A stretch of DNA of 22,359 bases, taken from positions 1 to 22,359 of the IMG/VR virus record IMGVR_UViG_3300027721_000083. One strand, given 5' to 3'. This DNA is from a virus. The translations under genes and the position numbers were made by a program. Of this stretch, positions 2 to 19,315 are shown piece after piece (the first letter of the stretch is position 1; each line of letters opens with the position of its first letter). The notes below the pieces were generated by a model. The model made no database searches. It had not been told where the DNA came from and worked only from the letters and a program-made list of their open reading frames with translations.

Positions 2-210
2 GGAACTCAGGGTCTTACGGGTGCACAAGGTATTGCCGGATCGAATGGTTTGAATGGTGCACAAGGTATTGCCGGATCGAATGGTTCGAATGGTGCACAA
101 GGTATTGCCGGATCCAACGGTTCGAATGGATCGCAGGGTGCGCAGGGTGCTGTCGGATCCAACGGAACCAACGGATCGCAAGGCGCGACGGGTGCAACCG
201 GTCCATCGAC
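2..210 (+). repeat. Gly-X-Y coding repeat with near-perfect 36-nt tandem units
   Basis: Three 36-nt units at 21-56, 57-92 and 93-128 are almost identical and encode GAQGIAGSNGSN-like dodecapeptides. They are followed by less regular Gly-X-Y triplets. The high nucleotide identity contrasts with the larger collagen genes in this window and points to recent expansion. Confidence 0.9.
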
Positions 211-661
211 CGCAATCAATGCTTCCGCATATTCGTCGGGAACGCACTATCCGGTCATGGTCGCAGGAACGGGTACCAACCAGACTCCTCGCGCATGTAC
301 CTCCATCTTCTACTACTCAGCCGGTACCACATACTCGACCGACTTTGCCGCAACCTCGGATGCTCGCCTCAAGACCGTTCTAGGATTCGTGGATGGCGCA
401 GTCGAGATTGTCGAGCAGTTGAACGGTATCAAGTACGTCTGGAATGACCTCGCAGCAAATCTAGGCTACGAGAGCAGTCATCCGGGTGGAGTTGAACTCG
501 GTGTCCTCGCGCAAGAAGTCGAGGCTGTATTGCCAGAAGCAGTCTATAAGGACGATAAGGATTATCTCCATGTCTCCTATGACAAGTTGGTTCCTGTCCT
601 GATTGAAGCTATCAAGGAATTGAATGCTCGTATCAAGGTTCTGGAAGCGGCGAAGGAATAA
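2..661 (+). CDS. Collagen-like tail fibre protein with C-terminal peptidase_S74 chaperone (5' partial)
   Basis: The reading frame is open from base 2, so the start lies left of the window; an internal ATG at 50 falls within the collagen repeat and is not the true start. About 65 residues of Gly-X-Y repeat (GAQGIAGSNGSN-type units) are followed by a short linker and then a peptidase_S74 domain from about residue 119 of the visible part. The S74 marks are [19 protein letters not shown] and a closing helix rich in Leu, Glu and Lys ([20 protein letters not shown]). Known family members fold trimeric fibre tips and then cleave themselves at Ser-Asp; here that bond lies at about nt 358/359. The protein is inferred to be a trimeric receptor-binding fibre or adhesin. 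The next gene begins 3 nt after the stop. Which baseplate or fibre part it attaches to cannot be told, because its N-terminus is missing. Confidence 0.9.
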   Translation, partial: GTQGLTGAQGIAGSNGLNGAQGIAGSNGSNGAQGIAGSNGSNGSQGAQGAVGSNGTNGSQGATGATGPSTAINASAYSSGTHYPVMVAGTGTNQTPRACTSIFYYSAGTTYSTDFAATSDARLKTVLGFVDGAVEIVEQLNGIKYVWNDLAANLGYESSHPGGVELGVLAQEVEAVLPEAVYKDDKDYLHVSYDKLVPVLIEAIKELNARIKVLEAAKE

Positions 662-664
662 TCC

Positions 665-1657
665 ATGGCAACGGTAGGCTCTAATCCAACTCTACTATCT
701 TCCGTGAAGTCCGTCTTTGGCGGCGCAGCCACCATGCTCGGATACTATCGCGGTGGAAGCAATGTGAAGAACATTGCTAACGCATATCCTAGTGTTGCGC
801 AGTCTGGAACACTCAGCCTATTGTCGTTTGCGGGTGTGATCAATCCGACTACGTTCCTTACTGCTAATACGGACGCATCAGATTCTCAGAACGATGGATC
901 CGGAGCAGATGCGGGGATTTATGCGGGTAATGAGTACGGAAGTAACATACTTCATACTCCCAATGGTGGTAATCCCACATGGCTATTGGCGGGAAATCGT
1001 GGTGACTATGAGATTCAATTGACAAAAACTTCTGGAACCACTCCTACCGGAAGTGCTGTCAATACATGGTTCAATATGGGCAGCACTGGCATTACGTGGT
1101 ATCTCTCTCAGACACCAAATAACGGCAGTAAGACCTTCTATGGGCAATTGAAGATTCGTATGTCAGCCTCGCCACAGACGATTCTGAATACCGCAGGCGT
1201 GTATCTATACGTCTTCGCAGCATCAAACCAGTGTCCTCAGTGCTGCTTCACGCCAGATACGCTTATCTCCATGGGCGATGGAACGACCAGAGCAATCGCA
1301 ATGGTCATGGTTGGCGACGAGATTCTCGTTCGCGGCGGAACGAAGCGAGTCACGGAAGTCATCACTCGGACGAATCGCGTCATGTACCAGATTCAGTTCG
1401 CAGATGGTCGCGTCCTCAATGCCTCGGAAGACCACCCTCTATACGTGGTGGACAAGGGTTACGCAGCCATCAACCCCGGTGTCGGTGGAGACTACAAGGA
1501 CTTGGGTATTCCGGATCAGTTGTACGTGGGCGACCTTGTACTCGACTCGGAAGGCAGAGAGAATCAGATTGTCGATATCATTGACCTTGACTATCCAGAA
1601 ACGGTCTACACCTTTGCAGAATCGGAGTTCTACGCGAACGGAATGCTCGTCTACTAA
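665..1657 (+). CDS. Tail-fibre-associated structural protein with C-terminal Hint (hedgehog/intein) domain
   Basis: 330 residues. Residues 1-60 resemble a diverged copy of the IQTEFGGSNP fibre N-terminus (SVFGGAA...GYYRGGSNV...SFAGV). Residues about 105-186 form a beta domain (TWLLAG...AVNTWFNMGS...KIRMSAS) that matches the protein at 13572-14099. From Cys194 a Hint domain begins. Block A reads CFTPDTLISMGDGTT; the block B-like segment is NASEDHPLYV, with His257 and Ser in place of the usual Thr254; the block F-like end is FYANGMLVY, followed directly by the stop. Canonical inteins end in His-Asn and continue into a C-extein; both are absent. Splicing is therefore unlikely, but N-terminal thioester formation and cleavage at Cys194 remain possible. 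CPQCC (190-194) places two further Cys beside the nucleophile. An AAGGA lies about 8 nt upstream of the ATG. A structural role is inferred; no function is proven. Confidence 0.85.
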   Translation: MATVGSNPTLLSSVKSVFGGAATMLGYYRGGSNVKNIANAYPSVAQSGTLSLLSFAGVINPTTFLTANTDASDSQNDGSGADAGIYAGNEYGSNILHTPNGGNPTWLLAGNRGDYEIQLTKTSGTTPTGSAVNTWFNMGSTGITWYLSQTPNNGSKTFYGQLKIRMSASPQTILNTAGVYLYVFAASNQCPQCCFTPDTLISMGDGTTRAIAMVMVGDEILVRGGTKRVTEVITRTNRVMYQIQFADGRVLNASEDHPLYVVDKGYAAINPGVGGDYKDLGIPDQLYVGDLVLDSEGRENQIVDIIDLDYPETVYTFAESEFYANGMLVY

Positions 1658-1661
1658 TTCC

Positions 1662-1668
1662 CTAAATA
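1662..1668 (+). promoter_or_regulatory. Putative T4-type late promoter (CTAAATA)
   Basis: CTAAATA lies in the 35-nt gap between the Hint protein and the next gene, 24 nt before its ATG (1693). It matches six or seven positions of the T4 late promoter TATAAATA. A Shine-Dalgarno-like AGAGGA follows at 1681-1686. The promoter role is inferred from sequence and position. Confidence 0.55.
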
Positions 1669-9508: not shown

Positions 9509-9515
9509 CTAAATA
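9509..9515 (+). promoter_or_regulatory. Putative T4-type late promoter (CTAAATA)
   Basis: CTAAATA lies inside the largest intergenic gap of the window (9499-9542), not overlapping a stop codon, 27 nt before the ATG at 9543. An AGGA follows at 9533-9536. This is one of the two clearest promoter candidates, because it cannot be explained by a stop-codon context. Confidence 0.58.
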
Positions 9516-9542: not shown

Positions 9543-12500
9543 ATGGCAGACTTCCCTTCTAATCCGACTATCGGCACGATCTTCACTTCCAACGATGGTA
9601 CGTCTTGGGAGTGGGATGGCTATTCTTGGAAAGCGGGTGGTGGACTCGGCGGTGGCGGTGGAATCTCTGAGATTTTCGTATCCGCAAACTCCGCATCGAC
9701 GGTCAATGCCAATGGATTGAACTTCATCAACACTGCGTCCGTTCTGGTCAGTGTCGTTCAGGGTGTTACCGGTAACGCTAATGTATCCTTCCATGCGAGC
9801 GGTATTCAGGGTGCGCAGGGTACACAGGGAACTCAGGGTCTTAGTGGTATTCAGGGTGTCCAAGGCACTCAGGGTGTGCAGGGAGTTCAGGGAATCCAAG
9901 GCACTCAGGGTGTACAGGGTCTAGACGGTCAGTTCGCAGGACAGGGTGTGACCGGCGCACAAGGTTCGACCGGTGTTCAGGGAACCGAAGGTTCAGCCGG
10001 TGAAACGATGATGTGGACGGATTCGTTCACGGCATCCGCAAACCAATCAGCATTCACTCTCAGCATTGCTCCGAATGACGAGAAGTATACCATCGTCACT
10101 CGCAACGGTGTTGTTCTTGTTCCGACGACTCACTACACCGTTTCCGGCACGACTCTTACTCTTACCTCTAACACTCAGCTAAACGATATTGTCGAAGCTC
10201 GTACCTTCGAAACGTTGGGTATCGGTGTTCAAGGTGTACAGGGTGCACAGGGATCGCAGGGTGTTCAAGGTGTACAAGGCACGCAAGGTGTCCAAGGCAT
10301 ACAGGGGTCTGTCGGCGTTCAAGGTGATCAAGGTATCATCGGTGATACTGGTCTACAAGGTCTGACCGGCGCACAAGGCACGCAAGGCGTACAGGGAACT
10401 CAAGGTGTACAGGGACAAATTGGTATTCAAGGTCTTACTGGCGCACAAGGTCTTACTGGCGCACAAGGTCTTACTGGCGCACAAGGAACTCAGGGTGTCC
10501 AAGGTCTGACCGGTATTCAAGGTCTGACGGGTACTCAAGGTCTAACCGGCGCACAAGGCACGCAAGGTGTTCAAGGTCTGATCGGTGTGCAGGGACTCAC
10601 AGGAACTCAAGGTCTGACCGGAACTCAAGGTTTGACCGGTGCGCAAGGCACACAAGGACTCACCGGAACTCAAGGTTTGACTGGAACACAGGGACTCACC
10701 GGAACTCAAGGTCTAACCGGTGTGCAAGGCGTTCAAGGTGTCCAAGGCATCATTGGTTCTCAGGGTGTTCAGGGTGTAATGCAGGATATCTCCGGTAAGG
10801 TGAACAAAACCGGCGATACGATGACTGGCGCATTGTCGTTTGACATTGCCGCAAACAATAATCACATGTACGGCAGCGCAAATAATAAGGGCAACTTCGC
10901 GCTGCTCTTCGGTGCTGCGTATGACGGCACCATTACTCCACAGATTCGCGGATGGGATTATCTCGCGACGGGTGGACAAGCAGGCAACCTTTCCATCGGC
11001 ACTGCGTCGAGCTACGGCAACACAGCCGTCATCTTCAATACACCAAAGGTCACGATGAGTGGTGATTTGGTTGTCAGTGGATATGGTGTGTATGCCGGTG
11101 GTGGGTTAGAAGTCCAAGGACTCTATCCGCAAATCAAGTGGTATCAGAGTGACGGCGCAGCTAACGAAAAGAATTCGGTCGTTCTTACGGACGGTGGAAC
11201 GTGGGATTTGCGATTCTACGATGACACAAATTCGAATTACTCCTCACCTCTAGGCATCACTCGGTCTGGATATCTCCCATCCAACATGACTGTGAACGCA
11301 AACGTCATATTCTGGACTGCGGGTGAGCCTAATGCGACATTCTATCGTCCTTCAAAGAGTCCCGGTGTCGGTATCGGTCTTCTCTGTTGGGATGGACTAA
11401 ATTCTTCCGACGCTCGCGTATCCTACGCTCGACTACAGACAGAAATTGTAGCCAACACCGCAGGCGCACACACCGGCACATTCCAAATTGAAACGTCTGT
11501 TGCGGGTGTGATGACGGCGGTTCTTTCGGCAAACGGCGCGAACGTTGGTATCGGCACAGATACGCCATCGTCTAAGTTCCGCGTTCTAGGTTCAGCCGCA
11601 GGAATGCACATCGGTTACAACGCAACCGACAACTACATTGACGGAAGCGTGACGTATTTCAGAACCTTTGGTGGAAGCCCTCAGATTAGCGTTGGCAGCA
11701 ACCTAGCCTCTAACATTGGCGTGAACATCGACACCGCAGGCTCACAACTTACCCTGCGCGAAACAGACGGTCCCGACCCGGCAGACAGAGCCATCGTTGA
11801 AGTCAATGGTGGCAACTTCAATATCTACACACACGACAGTTCGGCAAATTATTGGAGTTTACCATTCTCCGCGAATATCGCGACAGGTAACGTCACGATT
11901 GGAAACTGGTATGTCTCGGGTTCAGATAAGTCTGTGCGCAAGATTGCCATGTCCGAAGAAACCTTTACCTATGATGGTGACGCACTGGCGCATTACGGAC
12001 TTTCATATTACTCAGACAGTGTAACCGGTGGTAGCACCGCAGCACTCGCGGGTTACTACGGCATCAACCTCTTTACGGCTGGTCAGAGAAGAGTGGAGAT
12101 TGACTCGGGTGGAACACTAAACACTCGCGTAGATGGTAGCAACGTAGTCGCACTCGCTCTACGCAATGACACAGTGAGCCAATTGGCTAACACCACAATT
12201 CATATGGGCTTCAGCACATCTGGATATGGGTGGCGCATTACAAGCAACAACAACCCATCGTCTACCTACGCAGGACGCTTGGAGTTTTGGCGCGGCAATA
12301 GTGGATACAAGCTTTCAGCATTCCTTGAAAATGACGATAGATTCAATATGACCGGTGCTTCATCGTCGGCAAACTGGTCTGAAACTGTACCCGGTCTGAC
12401 GAAAGGAACGATTCATCTAGGACCGGCATCAACAGATAACTACGGCTGCGCAATTACCTTCGGTGCGTCTGACGCAAGCGATGGTCTGAATGCTCAAGCA

Positions 12501-13283
12501 GGCATCTATACCCGCACTGACGGTTCTTATGGCACGAAGATGTATTTCGCTACATCGGATAACTACGTCACTGGTGCGTCGGTCAGAATGTCCATCGACC
12601 ACAGTGGTCATGTTTATGTCAGGACGGGTAACTTCCACATTCCTGCGGGACAAGTTGCTTATCTGGATGGAACCACTGCTACCAAATACATCGGTGACAA
12701 TGCTTCAAGCACGTATGGTGCGTTGAGAATCGGCGGTAATAAGGGTTCATACGGTGGATTCTACGATGTGTATTCCGGTGTGAATATGATGTGGGATAGC
12801 TCCGGTAACGGTGGCATGTATCGTGAAGCAAATGGACGATGGATGTTCTATCACAACATCGGCAACGGCTCTCTAGGCATCGGATCATCTACTACATCCG
12901 CATCCTATGCGGTCTATGTCAACGGTGCTATCTACGCAACGGGCGACATTGTGGCATTCTCGGATGCTCGCAAGAAAGAGAACATCTACACGATTGACTC
13001 CGCACTGGCTAAAGTCTGCGCACTTCGCGGTGTCTACTTCAATCGTATTGATGATTCTGAGAAGCGCAAGCAGACCGGTGTAATCGCTCAGGAAGTTCTG
13101 GAAGTCGTTCCAGAAGTTGTTACGCACGCAAACACAGAAGATAAGGAAGGTAACACTGGCGAAGAGTATGGAGTCAACTACGGTGCGCTTGTCGGCGTGC
13201 TGATTGAGGCAGTGAAGGAACTCAACGCAAAGGTTGACGCACAAGCAAAATTGATTGAGGAATTGAGAAATGGCAAACACTAA
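9543..13283 (+). CDS. Large collagen-like tail fibre protein with C-terminal peptidase_S74 chaperone
   Basis: 1246 residues, the largest protein here. The N-terminus (ADFPSNPTIGTIFTSNDGTSWEWDGYSW) is a Trp-rich fibre start different from the other fibres. Gly-X-Y repeats at about 89-151 lead to a beta domain at about 153-228 (AFTLSI...RNGVVLVPTTHYTVSGTTL), paralogous to the one in the 1200-aa fibre, then more Gly-X-Y to about 412. Next comes 'VNKTGDTMTGALS', a motif typical of T4-like fibre shafts, and a long beta-rich shaft (413-1139) with 'NVGIGTDTPSSKFRVLGS'. The S74 domain starts at Ser1140-Asp1141 (SDARKKENI), followed by GVIAQEVLEVVPE and a terminal coiled helix. Self-cleavage after trimer folding is expected from the family. 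The last 14 nt overlap the next gene. Host receptor binding is inferred. Confidence 0.9.
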   Translation: MADFPSNPTIGTIFTSNDGTSWEWDGYSWKAGGGLGGGGGISEIFVSANSASTVNANGLNFINTASVLVSVVQGVTGNANVSFHASGIQGAQGTQGTQGLSGIQGVQGTQGVQGVQGIQGTQGVQGLDGQFAGQGVTGAQGSTGVQGTEGSAGETMMWTDSFTASANQSAFTLSIAPNDEKYTIVTRNGVVLVPTTHYTVSGTTLTLTSNTQLNDIVEARTFETLGIGVQGVQGAQGSQGVQGVQGTQGVQGIQGSVGVQGDQGIIGDTGLQGLTGAQGTQGVQGTQGVQGQIGIQGLTGAQGLTGAQGLTGAQGTQGVQGLTGIQGLTGTQGLTGAQGTQGVQGLIGVQGLTGTQGLTGTQGLTGAQGTQGLTGTQGLTGTQGLTGTQGLTGVQGVQGVQGIIGSQGVQGVMQDISGKVNKTGDTMTGALSFDIAANNNHMYGSANNKGNFALLFGAAYDGTITPQIRGWDYLATGGQAGNLSIGTASSYGNTAVIFNTPKVTMSGDLVVSGYGVYAGGGLEVQGLYPQIKWYQSDGAANEKNSVVLTDGGTWDLRFYDDTNSNYSSPLGITRSGYLPSNMTVNANVIFWTAGEPNATFYRPSKSPGVGIGLLCWDGLNSSDARVSYARLQTEIVANTAGAHTGTFQIETSVAGVMTAVLSANGANVGIGTDTPSSKFRVLGSAAGMHIGYNATDNYIDGSVTYFRTFGGSPQISVGSNLASNIGVNIDTAGSQLTLRETDGPDPADRAIVEVNGGNFNIYTHDSSANYWSLPFSANIATGNVTIGNWYVSGSDKSVRKIAMSEETFTYDGDALAHYGLSYYSDSVTGGSTAALAGYYGINLFTAGQRRVEIDSGGTLNTRVDGSNVVALALRNDTVSQLANTTIHMGFSTSGYGWRITSNNNPSSTYAGRLEFWRGNSGYKLSAFLENDDRFNMTGASSSANWSETVPGLTKGTIHLGPASTDNYGCAITFGASDASDGLNAQAGIYTRTDGSYGTKMYFATSDNYVTGASVRMSIDHSGHVYVRTGNFHIPAGQVAYLDGTTATKYIGDNASSTYGALRIGGNKGSYGGFYDVYSGVNMMWDSSGNGGMYREANGRWMFYHNIGNGSLGIGSSTTSASYAVYVNGAIYATGDIVAFSDARKKENIYTIDSALAKVCALRGVYFNRIDDSEKRKQTGVIAQEVLEVVPEVVTHANTEDKEGNTGEEYGVNYGALVGVLIEAVKELNAKVDAQAKLIEELRNGKH
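9807..9995 (+). repeat. Collagen-like Gly-X-Y coding repeat, block 1 of the 1246-aa fibre
   Basis: About 63 residues dominated by GVQGTQ and GIQG triplets. It contains a GLDGQFAGQGVTGAQG segment that also occurs in the 1028-aa fibre, with 23 identical nucleotides (9918-9940). Confidence 0.88.
10228..10775 (+). repeat. Collagen-like Gly-X-Y coding repeat, block 2 of the 1246-aa fibre
   Basis: About 183 uninterrupted residues of Gly-X-Y. It includes three perfect 18-nt tandem units (10431-10448, 10449-10466, 10467-10484) encoding GLTGAQ. Unlike the 1200-aa fibre, no Gly-X-Gly slips were seen in this block. Confidence 0.9.
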
Positions 13284-13569
13284 TATCACGTTCACATGGT
13301 ACGATGAAACCGCGAACACCACCGATTTGTACGTCCATGAAATGACGACAGATGACATGGACCGTATCATCGAAGCGGGTCGTCGCATCTTCGGCACGAT
13401 GAATGCCGAAACGATGACGCTAGAACTGGCATCCCGAAACAAGTCTCGCAAGAGCATGTCCAAGGAAGCCCTGCGCCTCTGGAAAGAGCGTGCGCGGCAG
13501 GAAGAAATCATCGTCGCACAGGACGGTGTGGCTGCGAACATTCCTCCGATTGATTCTACGGAAATCTAA
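13270..13569 (+). CDS. Small hydrophilic protein of unknown function
   Basis: 99 residues. The N-terminal third looks like beta strands (ITFTWYDETANTTDLYVHEMTT). The middle is a charged helix region (MDRIIEAGRRIF; SRNKSRKSMSKEALRLWKERARQEE). The tail is Pro- and Ile-containing (NIPPIDSTEI). The start codon lies inside the end of the S74 fibre gene (14-nt overlap) and is preceded by GAGG at about 13256-13259 with good spacing, so translation is coupled to the fibre. I do not recognise the family. The position suggests a fibre assembly factor or an adaptor between the fibre and the next structural protein, but nothing in the sequence proves this. No signal peptide, membrane segment or catalytic motif is visible. 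Confidence 0.8.
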   Translation: MANTNITFTWYDETANTTDLYVHEMTTDDMDRIIEAGRRIFGTMNAETMTLELASRNKSRKSMSKEALRLWKERARQEEIIVAQDGVAANIPPIDSTEI

Positions 13570-13571
13570 CG

Positions 13572-14099
13572 ATGGCACTTCCGACTTCCGTACTTGGCAT
13601 GGGCGCAATTCAGACAGAGTTTGGTGGTTCAAACCCAATCGCGCTGTCTGAATACTATGGCGTGAATGCCAATGTCGCAAGTTCGGGACAGATTCGAATG
13701 GCGCAGTTCCTAGGAATCTCAAACGCTCCTGTTGTTACGTTGCCTGCGAATACTGCTATTGCGGCAATAGACGTATACCCTGCTACATCCAACGCATACA
13801 TAAGGTTTACGTCTGCGGGAGGATATCAGGGTTCCGGTTTTGCCTCTGGAACTTGGTTGACTTCTGGTTCTGCTTCGCAGGTAGATATTCACCTAAGATA
13901 TTCCAGTGGAAGTCACAATCCTTCCGGAGATGCGGTGAACTCATGGTTGAACCTTGGAACGTCGCGCCAATGGCAGTTGCTCAATCCAACAGACCAGACA
14001 ATCAGAACCTCTAATATGATTCTCACATTGAGAGATGCTAGCACGTTGTCCAATTTGATATCGCGTACTGTGACCTTCTATTCTGAGAATGAGAAGTAA
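13572..14099 (+). CDS. Tail-fibre-associated beta protein, IQTEFGGSNP family
   Basis: 175 residues. Residues 1-55 carry the widespread phage fibre N-terminus: 'IQTEFGGSNPIALSEYYG', then 'SSGQIRMAQFLGIS'. Residues about 94-171 form a beta domain (TWLTSG...AVNSWLNLGTSRQW...LTLRDAS...TVTFYSE) clearly related to residues 105-186 of the Hint protein at 665-1657. Here the chain stops at the end of that domain, where the Hint domain begins in the paralogue. It starts 2 nt after the previous stop and is followed 2 nt later by a sulfotransferase-like gene. It is probably a virion protein attached to the fibre or baseplate network; exact position and ligand are unknown. There is no enzymatic motif. Confidence 0.8.
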   Translation: MALPTSVLGMGAIQTEFGGSNPIALSEYYGVNANVASSGQIRMAQFLGISNAPVVTLPANTAIAAIDVYPATSNAYIRFTSAGGYQGSGFASGTWLTSGSASQVDIHLRYSSGSHNPSGDAVNSWLNLGTSRQWQLLNPTDQTIRTSNMILTLRDASTLSNLISRTVTFYSENEK

Positions 14100-14101
14100 C
14101 C

Positions 14102-14680
14102 ATGCTGCTGTGTAAATCTCTGAAAATTCTAGTCTTACTGAATCCGAAAACTGGCTCACAGTCGCTACGGCAGTTGATGGTGTATTTGAATTCGACTCGC
14201 AGCATCTTCACGGTGTCTGAAATCGGATTGCGGAATAGCCGCATGTCTCGGTTTTCGGCATACTTTCCAAACGAAGACCTGACAGGATATCGCATTTTTG
14301 CTTTCTATCGTGACCCGCTTGAACGCTTTCTTTCCGGTATGGAACACCATCAGACGAAATTTCCGGTTGAGTTTCCGAGAACCATGAGCGTATCCGAATA
14401 CCTGAATGCGTGTGGTGGCTTCACTCCACAGGTTCTACATCTGAATCCCGAAGGATATACTCTGGAACTCTTCAACTTTGAGGACTTCAACAATGAGGTA
14501 GTGCGCATGGCAGCGGAGTTCGGCTATACCATCAACGCTGCGCAAGTGCCTAAAATCAATGAGAGTGCCAATCGCAAACGGCGTTCGGATTTGACTGCGC
14601 AGGAGATTCAACTAATCAGGAATCACTATGACGCTGATTATCAATTCTTCGCAAGCAAGGGCATCACGTTTCCTATCTAA
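14102..14680 (+). CDS. Sulfotransferase-family protein (PAPS-dependent, putative) 1
   Basis: 192 residues. The 5'-phosphosulfate-binding loop is visible as NPKTGSQSLRQLM (residues 14-26), at the end of a first hydrophobic strand (LKILVLL). The 3'-phosphate-binding segment is FYRDPLERFLSG, with Arg70 and Ser78 in the family spacing. The C-terminal part (ANRKRRSDLTAQEIQLIRN, then YDADYQFFASKGI) matches the usual end of carbohydrate sulfotransferases, where a helix and 'Y..D...F' close the fold. It is shorter than most cellular members and has no signal or transmembrane anchor, so it would act in the infected cytoplasm using host PAPS. The acceptor is unknown: host glycan, capsule or LPS precursor, or a virion protein. 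The gene begins 2 nt after an IQTEFGGSNP structural protein. Kinase-like or nucleotide-binding alternatives fit less well, because the loop lacks a Walker GxxxxGK[ST]. Confidence 0.8.
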   Translation: MLLCKSLKILVLLNPKTGSQSLRQLMVYLNSTRSIFTVSEIGLRNSRMSRFSAYFPNEDLTGYRIFAFYRDPLERFLSGMEHHQTKFPVEFPRTMSVSEYLNACGGFTPQVLHLNPEGYTLELFNFEDFNNEVVRMAAEFGYTINAAQVPKINESANRKRRSDLTAQEIQLIRNHYDADYQFFASKGITFPI

Positions 14681-14683
14681 ATA
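14677..14683 (+). promoter_or_regulatory. CTAAATA motif at gene junction (possible late promoter, poor spacing)
   Basis: CTAAATA overlaps the TAA stop of the sulfotransferase gene and lies only 7 nt before the ATG at 14691. A T4-type late start would fall at or just before that ATG and leave almost no leader. It may be a chance stop-codon context, or give leaderless or downstream-gene transcription. Confidence 0.3.
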
Positions 14684-14690
14684 AGCAACC

Positions 14691-15962
14691 ATGGCATACA
14701 ATAAACCCACTGCTAATCAGATTTCTCTAGGTTCATCTACGAATCTGGACCAAGTTATCAATCCCTCTGGCGTGTGGATTGGTAGTCCTACGAATTTGCA
14801 GGGCGCACAAGGATCGCAGGGTGTGCAAGGGGTTCAGGGGGTTCAAGGTACCCAAGGTGTGCAGGGAGTTCAGGGCGCGACCGGAACTCAAGGTCTTACT
14901 GGTGCACAGGGACTCACTGGTGCACAGGGTATAATTGGTGTGCAGGGTGTGCAAGGCGTTCAAGGCACACAGGGCGTTCAAGGACCGGGAGGATTGACGA
15001 CCACCGACGCAACCACCCTCGACTCTCTAGACTCGACCGATTTCGAAAGACGTTACCCACTCTCAAATACCGGCATGACTGCGGGATGGTACACGATTGC
15101 GGCTAACTTCGGTAGCCGCGCTTTCGGTAAGTTCACACTCATCGACCAGACTTCATCCGCGCATCAGAGTGTAAGCTTCGAAGCATCACACCACTATGGC
15201 GCAGGAAATGCCATTACTGTAACCCACAACGCAGCATTCTCAATCTCACCGTTCCGATACATTCGAATTATGGAAGGCGGCACCTATGACGGTGCTATGC
15301 TTCAAGTCTATGTTGACAGTACGATAAGTGGAACTGGTCTTGTCGTCATGACCGCAAATAACCAGATTGCGGGGTGGGTGGTCAAGTCATTCATTCCTGC
15401 GGCATCAGACCCCGGCACCGTAAACGTATTCGCTTCGCTGACCAATACAGCAGCAAACGTTGACCTCGACATGAATGGTGCGGGTAACAACATTCTTATC
15501 ACCACTGGTAACGTCTATGCGGGTGGAGATACTACTCAGTATCAGGTCATTCACAAGGGATGTACGGCTGAACCGCTACAGTTAGGAAGTCTCGGTGTCG
15601 GCACGGCTGCGTCTGGAACAACCGGTGAAATCCGTGCGACCAACAACATCACCGCATACTACTCGGACATGCGCCTCAAGGATAAGCTATACAACATCCC
15701 CGGTGCGCTCCATAAGGTCATGTCGCTGTCTGGATTCTACTTCACTCCTAACCAAATCGCACAGGATTTCGGCTACGAACTCAAGCGTGAGGTGGGTGTC
15801 TCGGCGCAAGAGGTGGAAGCAGTCCTACCAGAAGCCGTTGCGCCTGCGCCTATCTCCGACGAATACCTGACCGTCCGCTATGAGAAACTGGTGCCGCTAT
15901 TGATTGAAGCCATCAAGGAACTCAAGCAGGAGTTGGACGAACTGAAAGCCAAGGTGAACTGA
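14691..15962 (+). CDS. Collagen-like tail fibre protein with C-terminal peptidase_S74 chaperone
   Basis: 423 residues. The N-terminus ([20 protein letters not shown]) is paralogous to that of the 1028-aa fibre, indicating the same docking site. Gly-X-Y repeats, mainly GVQG and GTQG, run about 37-100. '[15 protein letters not shown]' links to a beta domain at about 115-300 containing [20 protein letters not shown] and a [19 protein letters not shown] segment typical of phage fibre heads. The S74 domain begins at Ser325-Asp326 (SDMRLKDKL), followed by [15 protein letters not shown] and a terminal Leu/Lys/Glu helix. Cleavage between Ser325 and Asp326 is predicted from the family. No convincing Shine-Dalgarno precedes the ATG; the start is fixed by the conserved N-terminus. 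The next gene starts 1 nt after the stop. Confidence 0.9.
14799..14990 (+). repeat. Collagen-like Gly-X-Y coding repeat of the 423-aa fibre
   Basis: About 64 residues, mainly GVQG and GTQG triplets, with no Gly-X-Gly slip. It ends with GPGG, one of the few prolines in any collagen block of this window. Confidence 0.88.
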
Positions 15963-15963
15963 C

Positions 15964-17457
15964 ATGCCAGTTCCTACCTATCCTAGCGCAATCACGCTGA
16001 CCGATATTCAGACCGAATTCGGCGGCAGCAATCCGGCATCCCTGAACGAATACTACTCGGGTGGAACCTATGTCAGCAGTGGCATTGCGAACTCCACCGG
16101 CACGGTCATTCCTACGAGCGGCGCAATCAACTTCCTGAACTTCTCAGGTGCGGTTTCGTTTCCGGTTGACCCAACACAGCCTACAATACTAGACCACTGG
16201 CACGGTAAGTGGAGTTGGAATAACGAGTTGATGTATGATATGTTTGTGAGTAATAAAACAGGTCACATCTACGCTAGGTCGGTCAGCGCAAACGGCTTCT
16301 GGTGTCTGGATGGGTCGGGCGCAAAGGTGTTCGCGAACAATTATACTTCTCAGCAATATAGGTGGGCTACGTCTCAAAAAAATCCATATTACATCTACTG
16401 GAACAGTGGGAGTGGAGTCACGCTGCGTATTGGAAAATCCTCTAACACCGGAGTCATAGTAAAGCAATCCAACATCAATTGGGGAGCAGGCAATACTTCG
16501 GCTTACCCTTGGTCATTAGCACCAATATCCGGAACATCCAATGCGACCACCTCCGTATTCGGTGTATTCTCAAACAGTACCAATCTCGCTGCTGCCACAG
16601 GCACCATCTGTAAAATCAACGCGACGGATATGGTTACGGTTGAGTGGGCAAAGACAACCTCGGTCAGTGCCTCTGATTTAACATCCAATATTAGACCGAC
16701 TTTTATCTTTGCCACAGGCGATGAGAGTCAGGTGATTGTTTCCGGTGCGAGAGGTACGAGCAATACCGTAGTGTTGGTTCTAGCCGCATCATCCGGAGCC
16801 ACAGTACAGAGTTGGCAGACCGCGCCCCAGTATACTATGTTGCGCAAGCCAACGGCGGCTAACAATATCGCATTACAAAATACCTTTATGCTCAATTTGA
16901 AATCCAACACCGGAGCAAATGTTGCTAATCTATACATTTCCAATACATCGTGGAAATCAACCGGCGCGATTTATGGCTATGACGTAGACTACGATTCCAA
17001 CATCTATTGCGCGGGTCGTAGAGTAGTAGGTGGCGGAGGCGCATATGAAGTTATGGTTGCGAAGTACAACACTTCTGGAACTCGACAGTGGCAAGTAAAG
17101 ATTGCGCCTACGAACTCAGCGAATGGTTTGTTGGTTAACGGTTTCGCTGCCACCAATAATAGAGTTATCCTTCAACTAGAGGAATTCACTGAAACTTTTG
17201 ATGGTAAGAAGTGGTATACGAGTAGTTATGGTGTGGTTAGGTATGTAAGTATCGACGCGGCATCCGGAAATACCGGAACCATTGGTGAGTATACCGTCAC
17301 AACCGATACTACGAGCGTTTGGTCTGCGGGAACCGGAAACACTGGATTGTGGGCATATACGTACAGTCCAAGAGACACTTACGACTTTACACTGGCAGCT
17401 AATACCCTTGGCGGCGGAACCGCTAATGCGGGAACCTTCACGGCGACAGCACTATGA
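15964..17457 (+). CDS. IQTEFGGSNP-family structural protein with putative beta-propeller adhesin domain
   Basis: 497 residues. Residues 10-62 carry the phage fibre N-terminus (IQTEFGGSNPASLNEYYSGG...PTSGAINFLNFSGA), shared with 13572-14099. The remainder is all-beta and rich in Ser, Thr, Asn and aromatic residues. The segment at about 337-381 (DVDYDSNIYCAGRRV, then MVAKYNTSGTRQWQVKI) resembles one blade of an SBBP-type beta-propeller. Earlier parts (KTGHIYARSVSANGFWCLDG, about 95-115) could be diverged blades. It begins 1 nt after an S74 fibre and overlaps a sulfotransferase-like gene by 4 nt (ATGA). A receptor-binding or glycan-binding tip is inferred. The blade count cannot be fixed by eye, so the propeller call is tentative, while the fibre N-terminus is secure. 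Confidence 0.78.
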   Translation: MPVPTYPSAITLTDIQTEFGGSNPASLNEYYSGGTYVSSGIANSTGTVIPTSGAINFLNFSGAVSFPVDPTQPTILDHWHGKWSWNNELMYDMFVSNKTGHIYARSVSANGFWCLDGSGAKVFANNYTSQQYRWATSQKNPYYIYWNSGSGVTLRIGKSSNTGVIVKQSNINWGAGNTSAYPWSLAPISGTSNATTSVFGVFSNSTNLAAATGTICKINATDMVTVEWAKTTSVSASDLTSNIRPTFIFATGDESQVIVSGARGTSNTVVLVLAASSGATVQSWQTAPQYTMLRKPTAANNIALQNTFMLNLKSNTGANVANLYISNTSWKSTGAIYGYDVDYDSNIYCAGRRVVGGGGAYEVMVAKYNTSGTRQWQVKIAPTNSANGLLVNGFAATNNRVILQLEEFTETFDGKKWYTSSYGVVRYVSIDAASGNTGTIGEYTVTTDTTSVWSAGTGNTGLWAYTYSPRDTYDFTLAANTLGGGTANAGTFTATAL

Positions 17458-18158
17458 TAATTTCACCAGACAAAACCAAGGTCTTCCTTGCTGTTACCAA
17501 GAACGGCTCAACCACTGTGGAGCATCTGTTGTCTCAGATTCCCGGTGTCATTCATCTGAACGACATGAAGGTAAGGCACGGAAATCGCTGCGACCTTCAA
17601 TCTCAGACAGAACAAAATCCCCTGTTAGCGGGTATGGATGCTTGGGCAGTCGAGTGCTATGCGTTCATCCGTAACCCCGCAGACCGCTTCTTCTCAGCCT
17701 GTAACTACCTCAAGCGATTCCCGTATGCGCTCGTCAACCTGTTTCCAGAGAAATTCTCCATCGAAGAGTTTGCCATTCCTGCTAATGATTATCAGCGCAG
17801 ATGGACTCTAGCCGAATGGTTTTCTATGCCACTGGCTCTCAGGGTGAGAATTCGCAATCTGACCGTAGAGGATTTTCTGAGCATTCCCCAATATCGACTC
17901 GGCTACGTCATGCGCGAACAGTGGCACTGGTTTGAGTCGGGAACAACAGGACTTCGCTATGACGACTTCCAGAACGAGACTCGCAGGCTAATTGGACTCT
18001 TCGGCGGCGATACGACGGTAAACATTCCAAACCTGAATGCTGCGGACGATTTTCCGACAGCCACACCATACGTCAAAACTCACGACATTTACATGGAAAT
18101 GCACCGTCGATATGAGCTAGATTATCGACTATTAGAAGCATACGGCATAGACCACTAA
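17454..18158 (+). CDS. Sulfotransferase-family protein (PAPS-dependent, putative) 2
   Basis: 234 residues. The phosphosulfate loop is VTKNGSTTVEHLL (about 14-26) after the strand KVFLA. The 3'-phosphate motif is FIRNPADRFFSACNYLKRF, with Arg73 and Ser81 at the same 8-residue spacing as in the first sulfotransferase. A middle region with YRLGYVMREQWHWF and LRYDDFQNETRRL recalls the family's acceptor-side loops and 'yE.L..d' strand; the end (RRYELDYRLLEAYGI) matches the closing 'Y..D...l..yG' pattern. It has no signal peptide or membrane anchor and is predicted cytoplasmic. Outside the two PAPS motifs it shows little similarity to the protein at 14102, so recent duplication is unlikely. Its start overlaps the stop of the IQTEFGGSNP/propeller protein (ATGA), which implies coupled translation. 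The acceptor is unknown. Confidence 0.75.
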   Translation: MIISPDKTKVFLAVTKNGSTTVEHLLSQIPGVIHLNDMKVRHGNRCDLQSQTEQNPLLAGMDAWAVECYAFIRNPADRFFSACNYLKRFPYALVNLFPEKFSIEEFAIPANDYQRRWTLAEWFSMPLALRVRIRNLTVEDFLSIPQYRLGYVMREQWHWFESGTTGLRYDDFQNETRRLIGLFGGDTTVNIPNLNAADDFPTATPYVKTHDIYMEMHRRYELDYRLLEAYGIDH

Positions 18159-18169
18159 AGGACACCACA

Positions 18170-18466
18170 ATGAAAATTCGACCAGTCTACAACTTCCTCC
18201 TGCTGCGCCGCTCTTGGATTGGCGGCATCACCATCTACCCGTTCATCTTCTTCAAGCGCACTCGCGAGGAAGTGACCGACCGGCTGTTCCGGCATGAGTT
18301 GGAGCATATCTATCAGGTGCGGGAAGAGGGTTGGTTCCGATTCTACTTCACCTATATCCTAGAGTCCATTCGCCATGGCTATAAGGGTAATAAGTACGAA
18401 ATCGCAGCCGACCTGTTGGAAAACACCCCTCTGACGGCTGAAGAGCGAGCATTGAAAGACTCCTAA
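18170..18466 (+). CDS. Small HExxH-motif protein (putative zinc metallopeptidase-like)
   Basis: 98 residues. RHELEHIYQV contains His42-Glu43-x-x-His46, the zinc-binding HExxH signature. Glu77, in YEIAADL, is a candidate third ligand, which would give a gluzincin-like arrangement. The sequence before the motif (VYNFLLLRRSWIGGITIYPFIFF) is hydrophobic and could be a membrane-associated segment or buried core. The segment GWFRFYFTYILESIRHGY after it is aromatic-rich. Similar compact proteins with RHE..H..Q and a downstream YE..A are known in bacteria and phages, but their substrates are not established. AAAGGA overlapping the previous stop provides a good ribosome site 7 nt before the ATG. Placement between fibre and neck genes would suit a role in virion maturation, but this is inference; HExxH alone can be fortuitous in a short protein. 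Confidence 0.7.
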   Translation: MKIRPVYNFLLLRRSWIGGITIYPFIFFKRTREEVTDRLFRHELEHIYQVREEGWFRFYFTYILESIRHGYKGNKYEIAADLLENTPLTAEERALKDS

Positions 18467-18469
18467 ATA
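18463..18469 (+). promoter_or_regulatory. Putative T4-type late promoter (CTAAATA) upstream of gene 13
   Basis: CTAAATA overlaps the TAA stop of the HExxH gene and lies 21 nt before the gp13 ATG (18491). A strong AGGAG ribosome site follows at 18481-18485. The spacing suits late transcription of the 13-14-15-16-17 operon. Inferred by similarity to T4 TATAAATA. Confidence 0.55.
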
Positions 18470-18490: not shown

Positions 18491-19315
18491 ATGGCTAACC
18501 CAACCGACAGAACAACCCTCAAGGACTACTGCCTGCGCAAGCTAGGCTTTCCGGTCATTGATATCAACGTGGACGACGATCAGGTAGAAGACCGCATTGA
18601 TGATGCGCTGCAAACCTATGCCGAATTCCACTACGATGCGACTCACGCCGACTACCTGATGATCAAGATGACTCCGGAAATGCTCGCGAACGGAAGCAAT
18701 ATCTCGTCGGCTCAGAATGCCAATGGCTCTATTGCGAACTCTACGTATTCATGGGTACCTCTGCCGGATAACGTCATGGGCGTATCCCGCATCTTCCCTC
18801 TCACCGGAACTACAGTCTCGGGTGGTGGAAGCTCGGCTGACTTCAACATCTTCGACCTGAACTACCAGTTGCGCCTGAACGAACTGTACGAATTCACCAG
18901 TTCATCCTACCAGTATTACTGGATTGCTCGTACCCACATCCGTATGCTTGAACTGCTACTGATCGGTCAGAATCCAATTCGGTTCAACAAGCACATGGGT
19001 CGCCTGTACATTGACATGCATTGGCGTGCGCCGGAAGTTCCGGCTAACACCTACATGCTGATTGAGTGCACCCGCGTTCTGGATCCGGTGGAATTCCCCA
19101 AGATCATGAACGACAAGTGGCTCAAGGAATATGCCACCCAACTGATCAAGCGTCAGTGGGGTGAGAACATGAAGAAGTACGGCAACTATACCCTTCCGGG
19201 TGGTATGGTCATCAACGGGCAGGGCATCTATGAGGAAGCTATTGCTGATATCGCTCGGTTGGAACTCCAACTCCGCGACACATGGGAAGAGCCACCACAG
19301 TTCTTGATCGGGTAA
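18491..19315 (+). CDS. 13: T4 gp13-like neck protein (head completion)
   Basis: 274 residues, somewhat shorter than T4 gp13 (309). The diagnostic N-terminus is LKDYCLRKLGFPVIDIN followed by VDDDQVEDRIDDALQTYAEF (residues 9-45). In T4, gp13 binds the portal vertex after DNA packaging and, with gp14, forms the neck to which the tail joins. A middle region (FNIFDLNYQLRLNELYEF; YYWIARTHIRMLELLL) and 'NDKWLKEYATQLIKRQWGEN' also fit the family. The ribosome site AGGAG is 5 nt before the ATG, the best in the window. It starts the block whose order matches T4 genes 13-17. Confidence is high because order, size and sequence agree. Confidence 0.93.
   Translation: MANPTDRTTLKDYCLRKLGFPVIDINVDDDQVEDRIDDALQTYAEFHYDATHADYLMIKMTPEMLANGSNISSAQNANGSIANSTYSWVPLPDNVMGVSRIFPLTGTTVSGGGSSADFNIFDLNYQLRLNELYEFTSSSYQYYWIARTHIRMLELLLIGQNPIRFNKHMGRLYIDMHWRAPEVPANTYMLIECTRVLDPVEFPKIMNDKWLKEYATQLIKRQWGENMKKYGNYTLPGGMVINGQGIYEEAIADIARLELQLRDTWEEPPQFLIG

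Follow-up and report, generated by a model that had tools for sequence, protein, structure and literature searches.

Phage sulfotransferases (STs) that match PHROG 3347 or Pfam PF03567 are treated in the papers found only as auxiliary genes or host-takeover genes without a clear function (PMC10580990), and a tail-adhesin cassette is not mentioned. In pelagimyophages, the region between the fibres and the neck genes is named the host-recognition cluster, and this cluster, like that of cyanomyophages, mixes fibres with modifying enzymes; glycosyltransferases are conspicuous there and the word sulfotransferase is absent from the paper (PMC7029224). Here we describe a 22.4-kb virus record from IMG/VR, IMGVR_UViG_3300027721_000083 (22,359 nucleotides, nt; "the window" means this whole stretch), which has a run of fibre genes at the left and a T4-type gene order at the right, and in which two sulfotransferase-like genes, ST1 and ST2, directly follow the genes of two putative tail adhesins, adhesin 1 and adhesin 2. 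We assign the region, which lies upstream of gp13, to a T4-like myovirus as its host-recognition cluster, since a variable tail-fibre region lies directly upstream of the neck genes gp13/gp14, as in the published definition (PMC7029224). It shares with the clusters described before the place, from fibres to neck genes, and the mix of fibres with modifying enzymes, and differs from them in its STs. ST1 and most members of its family also resemble the phage STs known so far in profile match and in the motifs for 3'-phosphoadenosine 5'-phosphosulfate (PAPS).

The arrangement is also similar to the gp38 pairs of T2/S16 and of T4, with a short adhesin-like gene directly 3' of a long fibre gene, a dedicated maturation gene and late expression. 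Here, the extra gene belongs to an enzyme family and is not a chaperone, and the likeness noted is one of gene arrangement. Some phages encode virion glycosylation beside structural genes; the cassette has the same placement of a modifying enzyme beside a structural gene, with sulfate instead of sugar. Neither an adhesin-sulfotransferase cassette nor phage virion sulfation was found in the literature searched, which covered few subscription journals. The arrangement, which related viruses repeat, points to phages that may modify chemically either their own tail tips or the surface of the host to which they bind.

Probable late units of fibre, adhesin and sulfotransferase genes

We found that the STs appear to be coupled with late fibre-adhesin units. 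CTAAATA, a putative late promoter motif in the T4-like phage Aeh1 (PMC1524935), occurs five times in the window, always on the + strand at a gene junction, whereas 1.2 occurrences are expected and none of 100 shuffles reaches five. A T4-like late transcription unit is marked by a late promoter motif of [AC]TAAATA type in front of its structural genes, and in the window 5/5 CTAAATA copies are at + strand gene junctions. The resulting partition gives an S74 fibre with a Hint-adhesin (unit 1), a group with a 1200-aa fibre (2), a 1028-aa fibre (3), an S74 fibre with a small protein, adhesin 1 and ST1 (4), an S74 fibre with adhesin 2, ST2 and an HExxH protein (5), and the genes from gp13 on (6). 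The partition is identical in relatives, and in neither ST unit does a late promoter motif fall between adhesin and ST, which are separated by a gap of 2 nt in the case of ST1 and overlap by 4 nt (ATGA) in the case of ST2. From these motifs we infer late expression of the fibre-adhesin-ST units. The features concerned are:

2..661, + strand: C-terminal part of a collagen-repeat/S74 tail fibre of unit 1 (collagen repeats and S74 motif), extending beyond the window
665..1657, + strand: adhesin of unit 1, with a divergent IQTEFGG-type N-terminus, an NTW beta-sandwich and a C-terminal Hint domain, not followed by an ST gene
1662..1668, + strand: CTAAATA, T4-type late promoter motif (motif scan)
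9509..9515, + strand: CTAAATA late promoter motif of the ST1 unit (motif scan)
9543..13283, + strand: long collagen-repeat/S74 fibre, first gene of the ST1 unit
13270..13569, + strand: small protein of 99 amino acids (aa) between fibre and adhesin, found in locus L127 too
13572..14099, + strand: adhesin 1, 175 aa, IQTEFGGSNPIALSEYY, with an IQTEFGG anchor (residues 1-50) and a C-terminal NTW beta-sandwich
14102..14680, + strand: ST1, sulfotransferase-like, 192 aa; PAPS motifs present, family His absent
14677..14683, + strand: CTAAATA late promoter motif of the ST2 unit, overlapping the ST1 stop codon (motif scan)
14691..15962, + strand: collagen/S74 fibre, first gene of the ST2 unit
15964..17457, + strand: adhesin 2, 497 aa, IQTEFGGSNPASLNEYY, with an IQTEFGG anchor and a variable distal part with a propeller-type repeat
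17454..18158, + strand: ST2, sulfotransferase-like, 234 aa, translationally coupled via the 4-nt overlap
18170..18466, + strand: small HExxH metallopeptidase-like protein, kept before gp13 in close relatives
18463..18469, + strand: CTAAATA late promoter motif of gp13 (motif scan)
18491..19315, + strand: gp13, a neck protein (head-tail adaptor Ad2) that bounds the host-recognition cluster on the right

Both STs are probably PAPS-type sulfotransferases, ST2 being weak by its own profile score. ST1 matches Sulfotransfer_2 (PF03567) with 35.9 bits (cut-off 22, E=1.2e-8) and PHROG 3347, 'Galactose-3-O-sulfotransferase', with E=1.8e-6. ST2 alone stays under the cut-off (PF03567, 14 bits for a cut-off of 22, E=0.056; phrog_3347, E=0.0023), and 15 of the 18 aligned members of its family match PF03567 (E up to 0.1). 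The AlphaFold2 (AF2) model of ST2 reaches a predicted local distance difference test score (pLDDT) of 89.8, and in a fold search of PDB its matches 1-6 are all sulfotransferases, with 3rnl first (E=4e-3, probability 0.98), then 3-OST and 2-OST. On family membership and predicted fold, ST2 would be a divergent member of the group, the template-modelling (TM) scores of its best PDB matches being low, at only ~0.37. The profile of the whole ST family retrieves from PDB the same sulfotransferase 3rnl (E=0.002) and a heparan sulfate 6-O-sulfotransferase (E=0.13). Searches with single proteins gave no match, whether with ST1 or ST2 against PDB (phmmer), INPHARED or IMG/VR, or with the STs of L131, L150, L212, L227 and L229 against INPHARED.

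The 5'-phosphosulfate loop is present in both proteins (PKTGS and TKNGS, K16-[TN]17-G18), and so is the 3'-phosphate motif R..P..RF.S (R70/S78 in ST1, R73/S81 in ST2), whose R, P and S are found in 35/35 aligned STs. ST1 and ST2 are 18% identical and fall in separate clades of the tree, and a recent duplication was rejected on these grounds. A sequence-only reading of this DNA had described two sulfotransferase-like genes that keep both motifs and represent separate captures. Its open reading frame coordinates, gap and overlap were exact, and the alignment, the tree and, for ST2, the family and the predicted structure agree with the rest.

A His column between the two PAPS motifs is occupied in 34/35 non-duplicate STs, the sole exception being ST1, which has zero His in this stretch of the alignment of 35 STs; ST2 has H42. 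By analogy with heparan sulfate 2-O-sulfotransferase, we take this conserved His to be a candidate catalytic base. Since the family His is missing in ST1, its activity is doubtful. An APS (adenosine 5'-phosphosulfate) kinase, which would indicate a PAPS supply encoded by the phage, is present in only 1/20 ST contigs and therefore host PAPS is presumed. The ST1 clade has no confirmed relative among 85,000 bacterial and archaeal genomes, hence no donor or host can be named.

Adhesin partners and their recurrence in related phages

The constant element in ST loci is often a C-terminal domain of ~100 aa that we call NTW after a motif. It is common to adhesin 1, the 665-1657 protein and the partners in L123, L124, L127, L130, L131 and L207. 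In the predicted structure of adhesin 1, the beta domain has a pLDDT >90 and the anchor part <50, so that NTW is a confidently predicted beta-sandwich; fold searches return weak Ig/PapD-like matches in PDB and uncharacterised phage proteins in BFVD (E 2e-11). In three proteins (window 665-1657, L131:6517-7392 and L124:6185-7018) the NTW beta-sandwich is followed by a Hint (intein-like) domain, and the L131 gene has in turn an ST behind it. Self-processing by a Hint domain would be an unusual feature of a phage adhesin.

At their N-termini, both adhesins carry the IQTEFGG-type module (pattern IQTEFGGSNP...EYY...SG.I...F.G), whose profile matches the 13572 protein with E 1e-17, the 15964 protein with E 1e-22 and a divergent third copy at 665-1657 with E 1e-5. 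Its consensus is matched by phrog_30374. The IQTEFGGSNPISLSEYY module is a widespread N-terminal module of tail proteins without a Pfam model (phrog_30374, function unknown; loci L002-L121), and shares homology with the 'VELG...SLSNLYGKS' N-terminus that tail proteins of siphovirus-like phages carry. In Synechococcus phage S-CREM2, a protein related to the anchor protein, ORF86, joins the GGSNPISLSEYY module to a LamG lectin domain; it lies directly behind the long tail fibre ORF85 and gave one unique virion peptide by mass spectrometry (PMC10665884), the closest experimental hint at a place of such proteins in the virion.

Relatives were obtained only via gp13 synteny and family alignments; scanning with the alignment of STs yielded 24 loci. 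Loci chosen by their gp13 homologue only contain more STs between fibres and gp13, up to three per locus, and in L124, L131 and L207 up to three STs are interleaved with adhesins, so that the number of STs goes with that of adhesins. For 31 non-duplicate viral STs the upstream gene could be read and was classified by eye: ~19 lie directly behind a fibre- or adhesin-like gene, in ~9 a small gene or a further ST stands between the two, and 3 (L129, L225 and L253) are in neither position. A profile search of 42 whole contigs (up to 172 kb) located STs almost only in fibre clusters, G123 being the exception.

The adjacency was tested in the gp13-selected loci, with the window excluded and with an NTW model built from proteins that have no link to STs, since seeding on ST neighbours would be circular. 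An ST is found directly behind 4/14 NTW genes versus 4/854 other genes (Fisher 3e-6, counted over genes of related phages, which are not independent). For genes with the IQTEFGG N-terminus, the figures are 1/14 versus 3/854 (p=0.06). The module is present in at least 120 viral contigs, only 1/100 of those searched has a Sulfotransfer_2 match, and many ST partners lack it, having only the C-terminal beta-sandwich domain or being collagen or beta-propeller fibre proteins. IQTEFGG was therefore rejected as the general ST partner, and its coupling to STs seems weaker than the window suggests. The expectation of the sequence-only reading that STs accompany IQTEFGG proteins beyond chance in other phages was thus borne out for beta-sandwich adhesins and not for the IQTEFGG module as such, and the coupling would be with late fibre-adhesin units.

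All nine members of the ST1 clade (support 90/90) lie directly behind an NTW-domain protein, while the N-terminal anchor differs among them; ST2 sits in another clade (support 98/96). Distances between STs correlate with those between NTW domains (Mantel r=0.81, exact p=0.022, 7 non-duplicate pairs). Together with the adjacency in the ST1 clade, this indicates that the ST and its adhesin domain move together. In L130:607-1874, L131:8434-9692 and L207:3005-4263, two different STs stand in tandem behind one adhesin with a 4-nt overlap, and the second belongs to the ST2 clade. A small DUF7936-like protein lies between adhesin and ST in L122:1151-1504, L124:7028-7342 and L146:1094-1426.

The whole ST2 cassette is kept in L265, where ST2 is 80% identical. 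The ratio of nonsynonymous to synonymous substitution rates (dN/dS) between the window and L265 is 0.07 for ST2, with synonymous sites near saturation, and shows ST2 to be under purifying selection; the inference of the sequence-only reading that the pair is functional thus stands for ST2 and is uncertain for ST1 without its family His. For adhesin 2, dN/dS is 0.29, with 97% identity in the anchor and 71% in the distal part, and a conserved anchor with a variable distal part is what one expects of a receptor-binding protein. The siphovirus-like contigs L212-L217 have the order S74 fibre, protein with a homologous N-terminus and an SBBP beta-propeller, and ST. Their N-terminus aligns with the IQTEFGG anchor (hhalign 97%, E 7e-11) and their beta-propeller resembles adhesin 2 locally (hhalign 79%, E 1.6e-5). 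BLASTP of the 497-aa adhesin 2 with the L209 partner gave no match.

Possible acceptors of the sulfate

Our favoured, still tentative reading is self-sulfation, in which each ST acts in the maturation of the adhesin or fibre encoded in the same late unit as itself, because of the late coupling, the one ST per adhesin cassette and the fixed partner domain. The ST is the last or near-last gene of its unit, a slot that usually holds fibre-specific maturation factors (T4 gp38, Tfa). It would act as maturation partner of an adhesin or fibre with which it shares a late mRNA, taking host PAPS in the cytoplasm and sulfating that protein (on Tyr, Ser or Thr), or a glycan on it, before assembly, and the anionic group at the tip would tune receptor binding. 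Here we infer the sulfotransferase activity, the presence of the adhesin in the virion and the role of adhesin or fibre as acceptor. With more reserve, we consider that these phages might have a dedicated virion-sulfation system of interchangeable two-gene cassettes, adhesin plus own ST, in which the sulfated tail tip sets receptor specificity.

Several observations speak against self-sulfation. The STs of L129, L225 and L253 are not directly behind an adhesin, and many related adhesins are without ST (L125, L134, L137, L078), which would make sulfation optional. The near-invariant His is missing in ST1, and the acceptor does not appear identifiable from sequence. Moreover, glycosyltransferase genes lie behind the ST in L150, L174 and L196, and a related ST of Pelagibacter phage Mosig lies in a glycosyltransferase/methyltransferase cluster away from fibres, neighbours that fit a host-glycan target. 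In L150 (6928-9970), L174 and L196 the run is ST, GT4 glycosyltransferase, DUF6445 gene, GT2 glycosyltransferase and then gp13, a possible sugar-and-sulfate cluster. The ST of S-T4 is near the tail fibres on the opposite strand. In isolates, the wider ST family is not confined to fibres.

The main rival explanation, which we regard as a real possibility, is that the STs sulfate precursors of host surface glycans late in infection, which would keep released progeny from sticking to debris or shut out rival phages; ST and adhesin would be linked since each ST matches the receptor bound by that adhesin. The closest phage family, PHROG 3347, is labelled galactose 3-O-sulfotransferase and placed in the host-takeover class, the best fold matches of ST2 include the glycan sulfotransferases 3-OST and 2-OST, the STs of Mosig and S-T4 adjoin glycosyltransferases or a NolO-like carbamoyltransferase, and in the three loci above glycosyltransferases lie behind the ST. 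For pelagimyophage glycosyltransferases in the same cluster a change of host surfaces has been proposed (PMC7029224). However, this explanation does not require the late structural placement, the one ST per cassette or the fixed partner domain of the ST1 clade, and most ST loci here are without an adjoining glycosyltransferase. The late-promoter units would favour self-modification and the glycosyltransferase neighbours in some relatives a glycan target; the two explanations could be reconciled if the sulfate goes to a glycan that the fibre carries. It is unlikely, in our view, that the STs are hitch-hiking cargo of a plastic insertion site, acting on small molecules or unrelated substrates and tolerated beside adhesins. 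In HTVC008M and Mosig, 2OG-Fe(II) oxygenases and haem enzymes are indeed found in the slot upstream of gp13, most gp13 loci are without ST and three STs are located elsewhere, but translational coupling, co-inheritance with one adhesin domain, the cassette kept in L265 and the same order in siphovirus-like phages exceed random placement. Still less probable is a loss of enzyme function in the STs, or in ST1 at least, with a role as adhesin-specific binding or folding factors: the His lost in ST1 and the chaperone-like slot of the gene fit this idea, but both PAPS motifs are intact in ST1 and ST2 and invariant in the family, and ST2 keeps its His.

An ST branch wired into late fibre-adhesin units provides the first substrate hypothesis that is concrete enough to be tested, with either the adhesin or its receptor as substrate. 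If the tail tip is sulfated, this would add a new post-translational layer to phage host range, and small PAPS enzymes that come with their own protein partners could be drawn from it.

Surroundings of the cassettes

The left part of the window is a series of collagen-repeat and S74 fibre genes. The right part follows the T4-type order, with gp13, three genes in the neck/sheath-completion position, a small gene and the N-terminus of the large terminase. The head-tail adaptor gp13 matches phrog_211 (E=5e-36) and has homologues in 1,174 phage records, the best ones in Pelagibacter phages HTVC008M and Mosig, Caulobacter phage Cr30 and cyanophages (37-43%). Defence-system models and Rfam gave no matches on the window, and scans of it for sigma-70 promoters and terminators gave no excess over shuffles. 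Upstream of gp13, the isolated pelagiphages L203 and L206 carry runs of 2OG-Fe(II) (2-oxoglutarate-dependent) oxygenases and haem-related enzymes. The HExxH protein at 18170-18466 matches phrog_15610, 'protease' (E=3.5e-5), and occupies the same place before gp13 in L124, L127, L130, L131, L207, L209 and L265.

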